Source of the DNA: Lachnospiraceae bacterium
GTDB lineage: Bacteria > Bacillota > Clostridia > Lachnospirales > Lachnospiraceae
Direction of reading: 5' to 3'
Assembly (NCBI GenBank): GCA_021771755.1
Contig: JAETOL010000001.1
Coordinates: 296,526 to 360,525, forward strand
DNA: 64,000 nucleotides
In this document: one piece after another, positions 21,612-36,428 of the stretch
Numbering within the stretch: the first letter of the stretch is position 1
How the letters are laid out: each line of letters opens with the position of its first letter
Translations under genes and position numbers: made by a program
The notes under the pieces: model-generated
Database searches by the model: none
Told to the model about the DNA's origin: nothing
The model's input: the letters and a program-made list of their open reading frames with translations, nothing else

Positions 21612-22652
21612 TTATTTCAGTGTTTCTGTCTCATAAGTATTTTTCATAAGCTCAAATCGCTCTTTCATTCCTTCTGTAAGATATACCTTATGATCCTCAT
21701 CTACAAAAGCTGCATCTGCCCCGTATTTTTCCAGAACGGGAAGCGCTTTTTCTTTTCCCAGAACAAAACACGCCGTAGAAAGACCATCTGCAAAAAGTCC
21801 GCTGTCGCAGACAACTGTTACAGAAGTAAGCCCGTTCCATACAGGGTATCCGGTTTTTGGATCAAGAATGTGATGATATCTTTTTCCATCTTCCATAAAA
21901 TACCGCTCATAATCTCCGGAAGTGGAAAGAAATTCTCCCCCCTTCAGAGAAACAGCTCCCAGGTAGTCTCCCTCCGGTTCCCTTGGATCCCGTATTGCCA
22001 CCCTCCAGTCTGACTGATCCGGCTTTTCTCCGTAAGCCATCACGCTGCTGCCTCCCAGATTCAGGATCATACCGGAAACATCCGCATCCTGTTCCAGAAG
22101 CTCCATAACCAGATCACAGCCGATTCCCTTGCCTGCCGCCCCCAGATCAAGGGTGGCGCCATCTTTTAATGTTGCCTTGTTTCCGTCAAGCTCCAGCTTT
22201 TCATATCCGGTTTCTTTGAGAAGCGATTCCAGTTCTCCCGCCTGAGGAATCCCTGCATTTTCTCCTCCAATGTCCCAGAGACGGATCACTTTACCCAGTG
22301 TGGGATCAAAGGCTCCCTCTGAATCTTCTGCAAGCTGCTGTATTTTTTGCAGATAATCCGTAAGCTCATCAGAAACCTCCACCGTTTCTCCTCCCGCCTG
22401 ATTCACTTGGGCAATCTGAGAGTCTTCTTCTGTCCAGGAAAGAAGCTCCTCCTCTGTTTTTTTCAGAAGCTTCCCGATAGAAGGATTCAGATCTTTTCCT
22501 TTCGTATACAAGGTTTCTGAGACAACTGTATTCATGGCAAAATCTGTATTTGTATATTTTTGTGTTTTTGCCTGAACGGGACTGAAAACAAGCCCTGTCA
22601 ATACCGCGCCTGCTAAAACAGTGCCCATTCCAAATTTCTGTTTTTTTGTCAT
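21612..22652 (-). CDS. apbE: FAD:protein FMN transferase (ApbE)
   Basis: 346 aa; signal peptide, TDFAMNTVVSETLY, GAFDPTLGKVIRLWDIG, DLGAAGKGIGCDLV, LNLGGSSVMAYG. Confidence 0.9.
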   Translation of the reverse strand: MTKKQKFGMGTVLAGAVLTGLVFSPVQAKTQKYTNTDFAMNTVVSETLYTKGKDLNPSIGKLLKKTEEELLSWTEEDSQIAQVNQAGGETVEVSDELTDYLQKIQQLAEDSEGAFDPTLGKVIRLWDIGGENAGIPQAGELESLLKETGYEKLELDGNKATLKDGATLDLGAAGKGIGCDLVMELLEQDADVSGMILNLGGSSVMAYGEKPDQSDWRVAIRDPREPEGDYLGAVSLKGGEFLSTSGDYERYFMEDGKRYHHILDPKTGYPVWNGLTSVTVVCDSGLFADGLSTACFVLGKEKALPVLEKYGADAAFVDEDHKVYLTEGMKERFELMKNTYETETLK

Positions 22653-30734: not shown

Positions 30735-32117
30735 ATGCAGAAACTGCAAAAATCTGTATTCCCCGGCGGCGTACATCCTACCGACGGATTTGACAAGGCT
30801 CTTTCCATGAACTGCGCGGTAACGCCTTACTATCCCGAAACGGTTACTATTCTTTCGGAGCAGTCTTTTGGAGGAAAATGCAGCTTCCTTGTAAAACCCG
30901 GCGAGCATGTAAAAGAAGGCCAGCTTATCGGTAAGCCTGAAGCCTTTATGGCCGCTCCCCTCCACGCCAGCGTAAGCGGTAAAGTCCTTGCTGTAAAAGA
31001 GATCACAGAACAGGGCCGCAGACTTATGGCGTGTATCCTGCAAAGAGAGGAATCTCCGGTTTCAGAAGCAGAAGCTTCCTATAAAAAAGGAACTGCTGAT
31101 ATCAGCCTTATTTCCAGACAAGAAATCCTTACTGGAATTCGTAACGGCGGTCTGACCGGAATGGGCGGAGCAGGATTCCCCACCCATAAAAAATATGAAA
31201 CTGACAAAAAGATCACAGATCTTCTCATCAACGGCGCAGAATGTGAGCCTTTCCTTACCTGCGACTACCGTCTCATGCTGGAAGAAGGCTATGCTCTCCT
31301 TAATGGGGTGCGGCTTCTTCTAAAAGGCAGCGGCGCCAAAAAAGCCTATATCTGTATGGAGGACAACAAGCCTCTGGCAGCAGAGAATCTCCAGAAGATC
31401 CTCACAGAAATGTCTTCCTCCGGCCTGATGGCAGAAGAAGAAAAGCTGGAGATCCGTGTACTTCCCACCAAATATCCTCAGGGAGGTGAGCGTCAGCTCA
31501 TCCAGGGTGTCCTTGGACGTGAAGTTCCCATGGGCGGACTTCCTGCAGATGTGGGTGTGATCGTTTCCAACGTAGGAACCGCCAAAGCCGCGGCAGACAT
31601 GATCCTTGGAAATACACCTCTGACAAAGAGAATCGTCACCGCTACCGGATCCGTAAAAAATCCGGGAAATTATCTGGTTCCTGTAGGAACCTCGGCGAAA
31701 GAGCTGATCCAGCTCTGCGGTGGAATAACCACAGCCCAAAACCGTATCATTGCAGGCGGTCCTATGACCGGTCCCTGTGTGGCACATAACTGGAACGGTG
31801 AAACCGAACTTTTCCATGTAACAAAAAACACCTCCGGAATCCTTGTACTTTCGGAACCCGGCTATGAAGAACAGCCCTGTATCCGCTGCTCCGGCTGCGA
31901 AAGCGTATGCCCGGCAGGACTGGTTCCCTACAAGATTGAATTTGCACTTCTTGATGAGGACTACGATCTCTGCGAAAAGCTTTATGCAAGCGAATGTATC
32001 GCCTGCGGATGCTGTTCTTATATCTGTCCTGCCAGACGTGAGCTTTCTGTACGGACCAGAGAAGCCAGAGACATTGTGAAACAGAGAATGAGGGAAAGGG
32101 CGGTAAAAAAATCATGA
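30735..32117 (+). CDS. rnfC: Rnf electron transport complex subunit C
   Basis: 460 aa; GGVHPTDGFDKA, GAGFPTHKKY, two 4Fe-4S motifs CIRCSGCESVCP and CIACGCCSYICP. Confidence 0.92.
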   Translation: MQKLQKSVFPGGVHPTDGFDKALSMNCAVTPYYPETVTILSEQSFGGKCSFLVKPGEHVKEGQLIGKPEAFMAAPLHASVSGKVLAVKEITEQGRRLMACILQREESPVSEAEASYKKGTADISLISRQEILTGIRNGGLTGMGGAGFPTHKKYETDKKITDLLINGAECEPFLTCDYRLMLEEGYALLNGVRLLLKGSGAKKAYICMEDNKPLAAENLQKILTEMSSSGLMAEEEKLEIRVLPTKYPQGGERQLIQGVLGREVPMGGLPADVGVIVSNVGTAKAAADMILGNTPLTKRIVTATGSVKNPGNYLVPVGTSAKELIQLCGGITTAQNRIIAGGPMTGPCVAHNWNGETELFHVTKNTSGILVLSEPGYEEQPCIRCSGCESVCPAGLVPYKIEFALLDEDYDLCEKLYASECIACGCCSYICPARRELSVRTREARDIVKQRMRERAVKKS

Positions 32118-33082
32118 ATCAGACAAAAACCTTCAGCGGCCCCCATATCCGCACAGCCAACACAACAAGGAACATCATGCTCCATGTTGCTATTTCTCTG
32201 ATGCCGGCCCTCTTAGGTTCCATTTACTTTTTCGGGATCCGCTCCCTGTACATTACCGGTCTTTCCGTAACCGTCTGCGTCCTGACAGAGTATATCTGGC
32301 AGAAGCTGGCAAAAAAACCGGTCACTGCAGGGGATTTCAGTGCTGTGGTCACAGGTATCCTTCTTGCCTTTAACATGCCGGTCACCGCGCCTTTGTGGGT
32401 GATCGTTGCAGCTGACGTTTTCAGCATCCTTGTTGTCAAGCAGATGTTCGGCGGTATCGGATGCAACTTTGCCAATCCGGCACTGATGGGACGTCTTCTG
32501 ACCATGGTCGTATGGCCGGGGACAGTAATGCAGTATGTAGCGCCCAGAACGCTGACAGCCTCCGGCTTTGATGCTGTTTCCTCAGCTACCGTACTGGGAG
32601 CTGTAAAAAACGGCGGCGAAGCCGGCTACAGCTATCTGCAGATGCTCCTTGGCGAGACACCCGGCGCACTTGGTGAAACCAGCAAGCTTCTTCTGCTTGT
32701 AGGCTTTGCCTATATGTGCTTTATGGGAATTGTAAATGCAGAAGCGGCACTTACCTATATCGGTACGGTAGTTCTTCTGACCTTTGTGTTCGGACCTTCC
32801 GGACTCTTTACAGGAGACATCCTTCTGAACCTTTTTGGCGGTGGTCTGATCCTGGGCGCATGCTACATGCTTACCGACTACGCCTTTGCCTCAAGAAGAG
32901 GCCGTCTGCTTTATGCAGTCACCGCCGGAGTCATTACTGCGGCCATCCGTATCTTCAGTTTTTATCCGGAGGGAATCTGCTTCGGTATCCTGACAGCCAA
33001 CTGTCTTGCCGGCGCTCTGTCTCTGCTCCATAAAAAACATGTATACGGTGTAAAAAAGCTTAAATTGGAGGAATATTCATGA
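32114..33082 (+). CDS. rnfD: Rnf electron transport complex subunit D
   Basis: 322 aa membrane protein; SGPHIRTANTTRNIMLHV, GGIGCNFANPALMGRLL; SSATVLGAVK carries the S-A-T flavin attachment-like motif. Confidence 0.9.
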   Translation: MNQTKTFSGPHIRTANTTRNIMLHVAISLMPALLGSIYFFGIRSLYITGLSVTVCVLTEYIWQKLAKKPVTAGDFSAVVTGILLAFNMPVTAPLWVIVAADVFSILVVKQMFGGIGCNFANPALMGRLLTMVVWPGTVMQYVAPRTLTASGFDAVSSATVLGAVKNGGEAGYSYLQMLLGETPGALGETSKLLLLVGFAYMCFMGIVNAEAALTYIGTVVLLTFVFGPSGLFTGDILLNLFGGGLILGACYMLTDYAFASRRGRLLYAVTAGVITAAIRIFSFYPEGICFGILTANCLAGALSLLHKKHVYGVKKLKLEEYS

Positions 33083-34476
33083 AAAATAAAGAAGTAAAAG
33101 GAATTCTTGCCCTTGTTGTGGTAACCGCTCTCTCTTTTGGCGTGATCATTGGTTCAAAATCCCTGGCCATCAGCGCAGGCGGCGATTCCGCCGCTCAGAG
33201 TGCGGAAGCTCTGGAAGAGCTTGATGTAAGCGGTGCAGAAAACATTGAAAAAGCGTCCAAAACTTCTGACGGTTATCTGGTAACCGTACGCACCAAAGGC
33301 TATGTAGGCGATATCGTAATGGATGTAGCTTTTGACGAGTCCGCATCTAAGATCACAGGTGTTCAGGTAGTTGAACAGTCTGAGACAGACGGTCTTGGTT
33401 CTAAAATCGCAGAAGCTGAGTTCCTGGATCAGTTTAAAGGAGTGGAAGCACCTGTTTATCTTCCGAGTATGGATGTTTCCGCAGAAACAGACAGTGCGGA
33501 AGAAGAAGCTGCTCCGGAAGAAGCGGAAGATCTCAGCATCCTTGAGGGAGCTTCCCTTGCAGACGGTACCTATGAGGCAAAAACAGAGGCTCCGGATTCC
33601 AACGGATTTATTGATGTTGTTACACTCACTGTAAAGGACGGCGCTATTACAGAAGCAAGCTGGGATGCTGTAACCGAAGACGGCAGCAAAAAAAGCATCA
33701 TGTCCGAAAACGGTGAGTACACGATGACAGAAGACGGACTTACATGGAAAGAGCAGGCTGAGGCTCTTGCTTCCGCTCTGATCGAGAACCAGTCTCTTTC
33801 CTTCCTGAACACCGATGCAGAAGGCAAAACTGACGCTGTTTCCGGTGTAAGTATTTCTGTAAACGGTTTTATCGACCTGGCTGCACAGTGTATGAAACAG
33901 GCTGCAGGCCTGGAAGATGCCCCGGCAGATCCTTTTGCCGGCGCCACTCTCACAGACGGTACTTATGAAGCCAAAACAGAAGCTCCGGATTCCAACGGAT
34001 TCACAGATGTAGTCACTCTTACTGTAAAGGACGGCGCTATTACAGAAGCAAGCTGGGATGCTGTGACCGAAGACGGCAGCAAAAAAAGCATCATGTCCGA
34101 AAACGGTGAGTACACGATGACAGAAGATGGACTTACATGGAAAGAGCAGGCTGAGGCTCTTGCTTCCGCTCTGATCGAGAACCAGTCCCTTTCCTTCCTG
34201 AACACCGATGCAGAAGGTAAGACCGATGCCGTTTCCGGTGTTAGTATTTCTGTAAACGGCTTTATCGATCTGGCAACCAGATGTCTGGAGGAGGCTTCCG
34301 GTATTCAGGCTTCCCAGCCGGAAACAGAAGAAGCTCCGGAAGAAGAGGCTGCTTCCGAGGAAACTGCTGATATAGCCGGAACTGAAATCGATGCAATCTC
34401 CGGTGCTACCATGTCTTCTACTGCAGCAGTGACCGGTATTAATGAAGCATATGATTTCTTACAGACAGTGAAATAA
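33079..34476 (+). CDS. rnfG: RnfG-like subunit with two inserted FMN-binding-like repeats
   Basis: 465 aa; N-terminal RnfG-like part, C-terminal EIDAISGATMSSTAAVTGINEAYDFL flavinylation motif, two near-identical internal repeats. Confidence 0.88.
   Translation: MKNKEVKGILALVVVTALSFGVIIGSKSLAISAGGDSAAQSAEALEELDVSGAENIEKASKTSDGYLVTVRTKGYVGDIVMDVAFDESASKITGVQVVEQSETDGLGSKIAEAEFLDQFKGVEAPVYLPSMDVSAETDSAEEEAAPEEAEDLSILEGASLADGTYEAKTEAPDSNGFIDVVTLTVKDGAITEASWDAVTEDGSKKSIMSENGEYTMTEDGLTWKEQAEALASALIENQSLSFLNTDAEGKTDAVSGVSISVNGFIDLAAQCMKQAAGLEDAPADPFAGATLTDGTYEAKTEAPDSNGFTDVVTLTVKDGAITEASWDAVTEDGSKKSIMSENGEYTMTEDGLTWKEQAEALASALIENQSLSFLNTDAEGKTDAVSGVSISVNGFIDLATRCLEEASGIQASQPETEEAPEEEAASEETADIAGTEIDAISGATMSSTAAVTGINEAYDFLQTVK
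33562..33882 (+). repeat. Intragenic repeat 1 (DGTYEAKTEAPDSNGF...DAVSGVSISVNGFIDLA)
   Basis: Near identical to 33955-34275 at DNA level; period 393 bp (131 codons). Confidence 0.95.
33955..34275 (+). repeat. Intragenic repeat 2
   Basis: Near identical to 33562-33882. Confidence 0.95.
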
Positions 34477-34494
34477 GAAAACGGAGGTTTCAAT

Positions 34495-35262
34495 ATGAAA
34501 TTAAGATATCCGGCAGAAGCCTTTGCTCTGGGGATCGTTCTTTTTTCCGCAGGCATGAAAGAAGCCTTTGCAGCCGGGATCCTGGTGATCTTCACTTCTG
34601 TATTTGCAGAACTTTTGAAGAATCTTCTGGAAAAGGCAGTTCCCACATGGAGTCTGAAACTCTGTGTCTATATTGCCTCCGGTTCTGTATGTGCTTCCGC
34701 TTTTCTTACAGGCTTTGCAGTTCTGGGTACTGTTCTTACAACAGAACTGTGGATCATGGTTTTTATTGTAGGACTTCTCTGCGGAAAACATGCGCTTTCC
34801 GGAAATACAGACAGTGAATATGGCGAGCTCCTTCTGGAATCCGCCTTTGTCTGGGGACTTTGGATCCTGTTTACTGTTTTCCGCGAATTTCTGGGCAGCG
34901 GAAGCATCTTCGGAAATACAGTCTTTACAGCATCGTTCCAGTCCAAAGCCTTCCTGAATACCACTTTTGCATTCATGGAAGCCGGACTTGTCCTTGCATC
35001 GGTAAACGGAATCCTGAAAAAAGACTGCAAAGGAATGAACAGCCTGTTCCCTGTGGTTCCCGCCATGTTTCTCTTCCATCCTTTTACAGTGGAAAGCTTT
35101 GCGGGGCTCCCTGGAACGGTGTGGGTGATCGCTGTTCCCATTCTTCTGTTCCTTTCTGTAAAGCAGACTTTAAAATTTGCCCGTACCGGAAGATTTTTCC
35201 GCGGGCTTCCTGTAGATATGCTGGCAGCAGGATTCATTTACATGATCCTGAGCATCTACTGA
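34495..35262 (+). CDS. RnfE/RnfA-like integral membrane protein (divergent)
   Basis: 255 aa; multiple TM segments, VFREFLGSGSIFG resembles the RnfE/NqrD REhLGSGTLFG motif; last gene of rnf operon. Confidence 0.65.
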   Translation: MKLRYPAEAFALGIVLFSAGMKEAFAAGILVIFTSVFAELLKNLLEKAVPTWSLKLCVYIASGSVCASAFLTGFAVLGTVLTTELWIMVFIVGLLCGKHALSGNTDSEYGELLLESAFVWGLWILFTVFREFLGSGSIFGNTVFTASFQSKAFLNTTFAFMEAGLVLASVNGILKKDCKGMNSLFPVVPAMFLFHPFTVESFAGLPGTVWVIAVPILLFLSVKQTLKFARTGRFFRGLPVDMLAAGFIYMILSIY

Positions 35263-35270
35263 TCTTTTTG

Positions 35271-35302
35271 CGGCATGGCCTTTGGGCTGTGCCGTTTTTT
35301 TA
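35271..35302 (+). terminator. Terminator of the rnf-like operon
   Basis: CGGCATGGCC tttg GGCTGTGCCG TTTTTTT. Confidence 0.8.
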
Positions 35303-35314
35303 TATAAATTTTAT

Positions 35315-35343
35315 TTGACAAAGTATATACCCGATGCTATAAT
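35315..35343 (+). promoter_or_regulatory. Consensus sigma-A promoter for FUSC gene
   Basis: TTGACA, 17 bp, TATAAT. Confidence 0.8.
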
Positions 35344-35378: not shown

Positions 35379-36428
35379 ATGACATTTTATCAGGAACTGC
35401 AGCTGAATCAGCAGGGATCCAAAGCAATCATCAAGGCTTCTTCCAGCCCTGGCGAAAAGCTGCGCCATATCTCTGTTTATCTGTTCAAGATCTTCATTAC
35501 AATGGTCTTCTGCATGGCCTTTGTTATGGGCTACACCAAAATCTTCGGGGATGAAAACAGTATCGTAGGTGTGATCGTCCTTCTTTGTATCATGGTCTTC
35601 CGCTATGCCGACTTCGGCATGCAGATGCCGGGCTCTCTGGCCTCCCTCGCCATAATCTTTGGTATCCTTGCCTTGGGTCCGCGACTGGCAAACGCCGCCG
35701 GACTTTTTGGAGAACTGATCATCAATGCAGGATGCATCTTTGCTCTTCTGCTTTTGGGCTGTCACAATGTCATGATGGCAAATCATTCCACTCTTGTTCT
35801 TGGCTATCTTCTGCTTTACGGCTATGATACCACCGGAAAAACTTATCTGATGAGACTGGCTGCCATAGGAGCCGGCGCTGTTCTGACTGCCTTTGTCTTT
35901 TACAGAAATCACAGAAAGCTGACCTATAAAAGAAAACTCCGCGATGTCATAAAAGAATTTCGACTGACTTCACTTCGGACACGCTGGCAGCTGACCGTAA
36001 CCTTCGGCGTTTCCACTGCGGTTTTTCTCGGAGGACTTTTTCATATTCCAAGAACCATGTGGATCGGGATTGCCGCCATGTCTGTGCTGCTTCCTTTCCG
36101 CGCAGATATGAAAGAAAGAGTCAAAGGACGTATTCCCGGAAACATCATCGGTGCGGTTGTCTTCCTTGGCATCTGTGTGTTCCTTCCGGCCTCTGTCTTT
36201 CCTTATATCGGCGTGATCGGAGGCATCGGTGTCGGACTTTCCGCCACCTATCAGTGGCAGGCAGTATTTAATTCTCTGGGCGCCATGGCGATCGCCACCA
36301 GTATTCTTGGTCTTCCCGGAGCTATCCTCTTCCGGATTGCCAATAACTTTATTGGTTCTGTTTACGGACAGTTCTTTGAAAAAATATCCAGCCGGTTCCT
36401 TGACCGGATCACTCCTGCCCGGGCCTGA
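35379..36428 (+). CDS. FUSC/aromatic acid exporter family membrane protein
   Basis: 349 aa with paired TM blocks; RTRWQLTVTFGVSTAVFLGGLFHIPRTMWIGIAAMSVLLPFRADMKERVKGRIPGNIIG. Confidence 0.8.
   Translation: MTFYQELQLNQQGSKAIIKASSSPGEKLRHISVYLFKIFITMVFCMAFVMGYTKIFGDENSIVGVIVLLCIMVFRYADFGMQMPGSLASLAIIFGILALGPRLANAAGLFGELIINAGCIFALLLLGCHNVMMANHSTLVLGYLLLYGYDTTGKTYLMRLAAIGAGAVLTAFVFYRNHRKLTYKRKLRDVIKEFRLTSLRTRWQLTVTFGVSTAVFLGGLFHIPRTMWIGIAAMSVLLPFRADMKERVKGRIPGNIIGAVVFLGICVFLPASVFPYIGVIGGIGVGLSATYQWQAVFNSLGAMAIATSILGLPGAILFRIANNFIGSVYGQFFEKISSRFLDRITPARA

Follow-up and report, generated by a model that had tools for sequence, protein, structure and literature searches.

A four-gene Rnf-derived operon of Lachnospiraceae without rnfA and rnfB, encoding an RnfG with inserted PplA-like repeats

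The Rnf complex (RnfABCDGE) is viewed as a semicircular ferredoxin:NAD+ pump. Within it, four cysteines of RnfA and RnfE hold a [2Fe-2S] cluster that accepts electrons from RnfB and thereby connects the complex with ferredoxin (PMC12174285). RnfG proteins with more than one FMN-binding domain, encoded in RNF clusters defined by the presence of RnfB, were already published in 2021, when a bifurcated multi-flavinylated RNF was also proposed (Meheust et al. 2021, PMC8238504). Two-subunit NQR/RNF-like systems, in which RnfD/NqrB is fused to PF00175 and has no flavinylation site, retain a single transmembrane path and have been proposed to pass electrons outward from NAD(P)H (PMC8238504, PMC11334425). 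Tandem FMN-binding domains are also found in PplA of the Listeria flavin-based EET (the Ndh2/EetA/EetB system), a free lipoprotein with the sites EVVSGAT and DTVSGAT, and in the stand-alone proteins SaFMN3 and CbFMN4, which carry near-identical FMN domains on one chain with flexible linkers (PMC10339131). The arrangement of multi-flavinylated proteins has been described as 'beads on a string' (PMC11334425).

The operon reported here lies in the window, the whole 64,000-nucleotide stretch of Lachnospiraceae DNA that was analysed (assembly GCA_021771755.1, contig JAETOL010000001.1). Its four tightly packed genes, rnfC-rnfD-rnfG-rnfE* with rnfG third (30735–35262; Table 1), share with Rnf the homologous subunits RnfC, RnfD and RnfG in equal order, an RnfG FMN_bind domain with DAISGAT and a fourth subunit derived from RnfE. 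They differ from it in that rnfA, canonical rnfE and rnfB are all missing from the operon, RnfE* lacks the [2Fe-2S] cysteines and RnfG carries two extra FMN-binding domains. A complete Rnf with an ornate RnfG is thus ruled out for this operon, rnfA and rnfB being absent both here and at the loci of its relatives, and the multi-flavin wire that the earlier note saw as attached to Rnf is not an addition to a complete complex. The missing rnfA and rnfB, together with the loss of the RnfE* cysteines, argue for a separate complex, probably outward-directed. We propose, with a probability of roughly two in three, that the operon encodes a four-subunit Rnf-derived complex that has kept the NAD(H) branch, has lost the ferredoxin branch and would send electrons from NADH outward via flavin beads. 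This 'half-Rnf' differs from the published multi-flavinylated clusters in being a partial Rnf without RnfB. Like the NQR/RNF-like systems it has a single transmembrane path, but its RnfC is separate, its RnfD keeps the site DAVSSAT and an RnfE relative is present. In the literature searched, the NQR/RNF-like systems were the only partial or RnfB-less Rnf clusters, and no four-subunit complex combining a cluster-free RnfE with the lack of RnfA and RnfB appeared there, although an earlier listing in paywalled or supplementary material is possible.

Table 1 Features of the operon and its setting in the window.
Feature	Position	Strand	Evidence
rnfC, 460 aa; FMN/NADH (Complex1_51K), SLBB, two CxxCxxCxxxCP 4Fe-4S motifs	30735..32117	+	TIGR01945 398 bits (cut-off 246); Pfam
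rnfD, 322 aa; flavinylation site DAVSSAT	32114..33082	+	TIGR01946 236 bits (cut-off 207); PF03116
rnfG with inserted PplA-like repeats, 465 aa	33079..34476	+	ORF list, Pfam, NCBIfam, PDB matches
Single N-terminal membrane helix, aa 6–24	33094..33150	+	Hydropathy maximum; AF2 helix 4–33
N-terminal part of RnfG's own FMN_bind, ~aa 57–131	33247..33471	+	PF04205 profile 1–36; 7zc6_G alignment
PplA-like FMN-binding repeat 1	33562..33882	+	Repeat comparison, NCBIfam PplA model
Motif DAVSGVS in repeat 1, predicted FMN acceptor Ser258	33832..33852	+	Kept across relatives
PplA-like FMN-binding repeat 2	33955..34275	+	Repeat comparison, PDB match
Motif DAVSGVS in repeat 2, predicted FMN acceptor Ser389	34225..34245	+	Motif position
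RnfG's own DAISGAT, predicted FMN acceptor Thr444	34390..34410	+	PF04205 profile 43–76
RnfE-derived subunit without [2Fe-2S] cysteines (RnfE*), 255 aa	34495..35262	+	AF2, Foldseek, family HMM
Strong terminator-like stem-loop ending the operon, directly 3' of the RnfE* gene	35270..35295	+	Hairpin search
ApbE flavin transferase, Pfam-matched stretch	21711..22535	-	PF02424 270.7 bits; sole ApbE found in genome

Both 4Fe-4S motifs of RnfC are retained in all 40 of the 40 homologues compared. The RnfD site has Ser for Gly relative to the usual SGAT and is mostly DAVSSAT across this operon type; PF03116 is the only significant Pfam family in the window's RnfD, with no PF00175 fusion. A complete rnfCDGEAB operon, whose RnfG has a single FMN_bind, is present on another contig of the same genome. 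The two RnfGs are the only PF04205 proteins above cut-off in this genome, which encodes no free PplA lipoprotein. No acceptor gene lies within the window's operon, and the window contains no Rfam match to a regulatory RNA.

The repeated unit within RnfG spans 107 codons at an offset of 393 nt, and its two copies, whose near-identity the earlier note had seen, are identical at 298 of 321 nucleotides and 106 of 107 amino acids. An assembly artefact or collapse is ruled out, as 23 of the 321 bases distinguish the copies and two or more repeats occupy the same site at 24 further loci. The first part of PF04205 (profile 1–36) matches aa 74–131 of RnfG and the second (profile 43–76) lies near the C-terminus around DAISGAT, and the RnfG structure 7zc6_G covers aa 39–121 and 432–463 in alignment; the repeats, being flanked by the two PF04205 halves, therefore sit inside RnfG's own FMN_bind, just ahead of its flavinylation motif, where the earlier note had placed them. 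TIGR01947 (RnfG) scores 64.6 bits on this protein, with its cut-off of 102 not reached. The PplA-like character that the earlier note gave to the repeats is supported by the match of the pair to the PplA model NF041941 (103 bits, E = 1.3e-29, aa 134–404; family cut-off 325 bits) and of a repeat to PDB 2kzx (E = 6e-21), with 3o6u also similar. In addition, L. monocytogenes PplA was recovered by tblastn at 29% identity. Pfam places four PF04205 stretches in the protein, which has three ApbE-type motifs, two of them GVS variants; the suggested PF04205 search matched the repeats, but at 18.3–18.6 bits each a single repeat stays under the cut-off of 22. The window's RnfG thus resembles PplA in its tandem pair of FMN-binding domains, which belong to the same family, and differs from it in that the pair is inserted in RnfG, carries DAVSGVS, follows an N-terminal membrane helix and scores below the PplA cut-off of 325 bits. 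It likewise differs from the stand-alone SaFMN3 and CbFMN4, as its near-identical domains belong to a membrane-complex subunit. The AF2 model of RnfG (mean pLDDT 77.9, pTM 0.41, 26-sequence alignment) has separate domains with low-confidence linkers, similar to the 'beads on a string' arrangement. The topology of the helix is presumed to be N-in/C-out, which should put all RnfG beads outside the cell.

Flavinylation of the DAVSGVS sites appears likely from their motifs, yet is less certain than that of DAISGAT, as GVS departs from the ApbE consensus Dxx[S/T]GA[S/T] and changes of this kind lowered flavinylation in other targets, where A to V approximately halved it and T to S led to a drop of 10–55% (PMC12052999). 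The same departures, both the SSAT of RnfD and the GVS of the repeats, count against the half-Rnf proposal. All 59 extracted repeats end in D-x-V-x-G-V-S, a count that is not independent as the extraction pattern itself demanded GVS. However, V257 and S258 are invariant among 26 aligned intact proteins, and a separate listing of motifs contained no GAT in the inserts. It is quite unlikely, in our assessment, that the repeats are PplA-fold beads that are not covalently flavinylated, with flavin bound non-covalently or not at all, and that serve solely to extend RnfG through the cell wall. The fixation of GVS for GAT in the family, the reduced flavinylation after such substitutions and the sub-threshold Pfam score of a single repeat would fit such spacers, but the motif Asp, Gly and Ser are retained at the same place, and 20 of the 21 codon differences between the window's repeats are silent, indicating strong purifying selection. 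Free PplA-like lipoproteins of relatives likewise end in GVS or GVT. Furthermore, the homologous Listeria PplA is experimentally flavinylated, with FMN linked to T143 and T265, which are the ends of the two sites in its sequence, and Ser may replace its Thr (PMC8906456). The fixed GVS motif provides a natural test case of ApbE specificity.

RnfE* has no family match in Pfam or NCBIfam. AF2 models it with confidence (pLDDT 90.5, pTM 0.89), and the best nine PDB matches in Foldseek are all RnfE/NqrD (probability 1.00, target-normalised TM-score 0.50–0.59, E 0.02–0.1). Profile comparison with RnfE gave E = 1.2e-5, with hhalign alone reaching only 81% probability, and the RnfE* family HMM picks up genuine RnfE in complete rnf operons (E ~1e-15). 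An unrelated membrane protein is ruled out by these three lines of evidence, and on profile and modelled fold we identify the fourth gene as a divergent RnfE that has lost all [2Fe-2S] cysteines: no conserved Cys matches C39/C122 of RnfE (conserved in 30/30) or C26/C114 of RnfA (28/28). The C-terminus of RnfE* also has a weak hhalign match to RnfA (E = 4e-5), a slender hint at an RnfE-RnfA fusion. As both the cluster and RnfB are lost, the ferredoxin branch would be gone. RnfE* has nevertheless been kept despite the loss of the cluster and so must do something; it probably completes the membrane part as a structural remnant or docking partner. Another Rnf-like variant was observed at two loci (L119 and L126, in genomes G742 and G693). 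At L119 neither [2Fe-2S] cysteine is present in an RnfE-like subunit, an RnfA-like one is missing the first but keeps FNCAVLG, and RnfD has no SGAT site, while a subunit at L126 scores similarly against RnfE and RnfA; this variant may represent another cluster-free Rnf that arose independently.

A family scan over 84,980 species genomes returned ~49 loci, nearly all in Lachnospiraceae (Blautia, Mediterraneibacter, Merdimonas, Lachnoclostridium and others), with the gene order rnfC-rnfD-rnfG-rnfE* wherever the flanks allow reading. Save for one 21-bit RnfB match (L081), none of the ~49 loci has rnfA, canonical rnfE or rnfB beside the operon. In many relatives ApbE adjoins it, often just downstream on the opposite strand. 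Strong matches (E < 1e-25) occur in 25 of 397 genomes spread over the window's family and, in a class-wide genome sample, in the window's own genome only; weak matches in the genome tables were canonical RnfE where checked. The operon-type RnfD groups into a single clade, separate from canonical RnfD (tree support 100, with long branches), and within this clade the window lies nearest to a Blautia MAG and B. caecimuris. We favour, at slightly lower confidence than the reading of the window's own operon, the view that the half-Rnf is a distinct class, recurrent but patchy in Lachnospiraceae, acting as a one-way NADH:extracytosolic-acceptor oxidoreductase in which RnfG is a socket for swappable modules.

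Canonical RnfA and RnfE are also encoded in 27 of the 29 operon-bearing genomes tested, some of which have both operons on a single contig, separated by a few kb. This co-occurrence counts against a half-Rnf standing alone, and functional interplay is possible. It would also fit an alternative RnfCDG module that assembles with canonical RnfA, RnfE and RnfB into an Rnf isoform in which RnfG would route some of the electrons outward, for which the multi-flavinylated RnfGs published in RNF clusters (PMC8238504) are a precedent. We consider such a module unlikely, as the operon brings its own RnfE homologue, its RnfD forms a separate clade and two genomes carry the operon intact without an RnfA/RnfE pair: G283 (97% complete, with one 24.9-bit match only) and G375 (87% complete), in neither of which RnfB rises above ferredoxin background. 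The operon of the half-Rnf can thus occur alone. Among its cultured carriers (B. hansenii, B. caecimuris, Mediterraneibacter glycyrrhizinilyticus and Lachnoclostridium sp. An138), Lachnoclostridium sp. An138 appears to be without canonical Rnf, and the presence of the operon in cultured species makes the proposal testable.

In the proposed half-Rnf mechanism, NADH would be oxidised at RnfC (FMN, two 4Fe-4S clusters) and electrons would cross the membrane via the RnfD flavins to the RnfG FMN on Thr444. From there they would reach the FMNs of Ser258 and Ser389, one on each PplA-like bead; the beads would protrude from the RnfG FMN domain and hand electrons on, by relay or by swinging, to an extracytosolic acceptor. 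We infer the direction and the acceptor from the retained parts, the NQR/RNF-like precedent, reductases fused to RnfG in relatives and the midpoint potential of a related multi-FMN protein. Flow could in principle be inward, with extracellular or cell-wall donors reducing the beads and RnfG, and RnfD and RnfC reducing NAD+, along the canonical Rnf route RnfG -> RnfD -> RnfC -> NAD+ (PMC12174285), all parts of which are retained. The midpoint of the related protein, however, is ~-184 mV (PMC10339131), well above that of NAD+/NADH, which favours outward flow unless an ion gradient drives the reverse, and the fumarate-reductase-type FAD_binding_2 domain fused to RnfG in four relatives is an electron sink; inward flow is in our view highly improbable. 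If the outward half-Rnf mechanism is true, it would be a previously undescribed route by which gut anaerobes discharge electrons, a candidate means by which Blautia and relatives dispose of NADH or carry out extracellular reduction, and a natural experiment on which Rnf parts transmembrane electron transfer needs.

The outer part of RnfG varies between loci. Inserts number none (five loci, ~175 aa), one, two (24 loci) or three (L074), so copy number, which the earlier note expected to vary among strains, varies between species. At four loci (L082, L084, L085 and L086) the RnfG FMN_bind is followed by the fused FAD_binding_2 domain in place of PplA-like beads. The zero-insert and reductase states each have a single origin on the RnfD tree, and the one/two-insert state changed ~8 times, at least three of these changes being forced by well supported branches. 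In genome G125 (L139:6498-11839), a canonical rnf operon is followed by a separate protein with three FMN_bind-like units and then by a half-Rnf operon. The RnfG of the latter is made up of three FMN-binding domains bearing DVVSGA[TS] motifs. In two one-insert loci (L079, and L012 in G039), RnfG's own motif is DAVTYAT, not SGAT. The second RnfG repeat of one MAG (L047:1-714) has one in-frame stop, reflecting a pseudogene or an assembly error.

Repeats within a gene are on average 87% identical at the nucleotide level, compared with a median of 68% against the first repeat of other loci (25 loci with at least two repeats). In the 106-codon core of the window's repeats 21 codons differ, and differences are fewest mid-repeat (2 in codons 38–87 vs 20 outside; Fisher p = 0.0003, with boundaries picked post hoc). 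Paralog-specific sites are common to close species (8 for the window and L040, 45 for L064 and L069), which indicates that the two copies are older than those splits. In more distant pairs, species-specific states are found in both copies (34 vs 1 for the window and L041, 25 vs 1 for L063 and L064). These patterns amount to concerted evolution by conversion, in which older duplications are homogenised within genes and not between them; contraction and re-duplication possibly also contributed to the homogeneity of the repeats. Recent duplication as the sole cause is ruled out by the paralog-specific sites that predate some species splits. Of the two origins put forward in the earlier note for the near-identity, conversion is therefore upheld, while recent duplication can account for only part of it.

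Adjoining the operon terminator, the window contains a perfect sigma-70 consensus (35315–35343; TTGACA-17-TATAAT with TG ahead of the -10), which lies just upstream of a FUSC-like gene (35379–36428).
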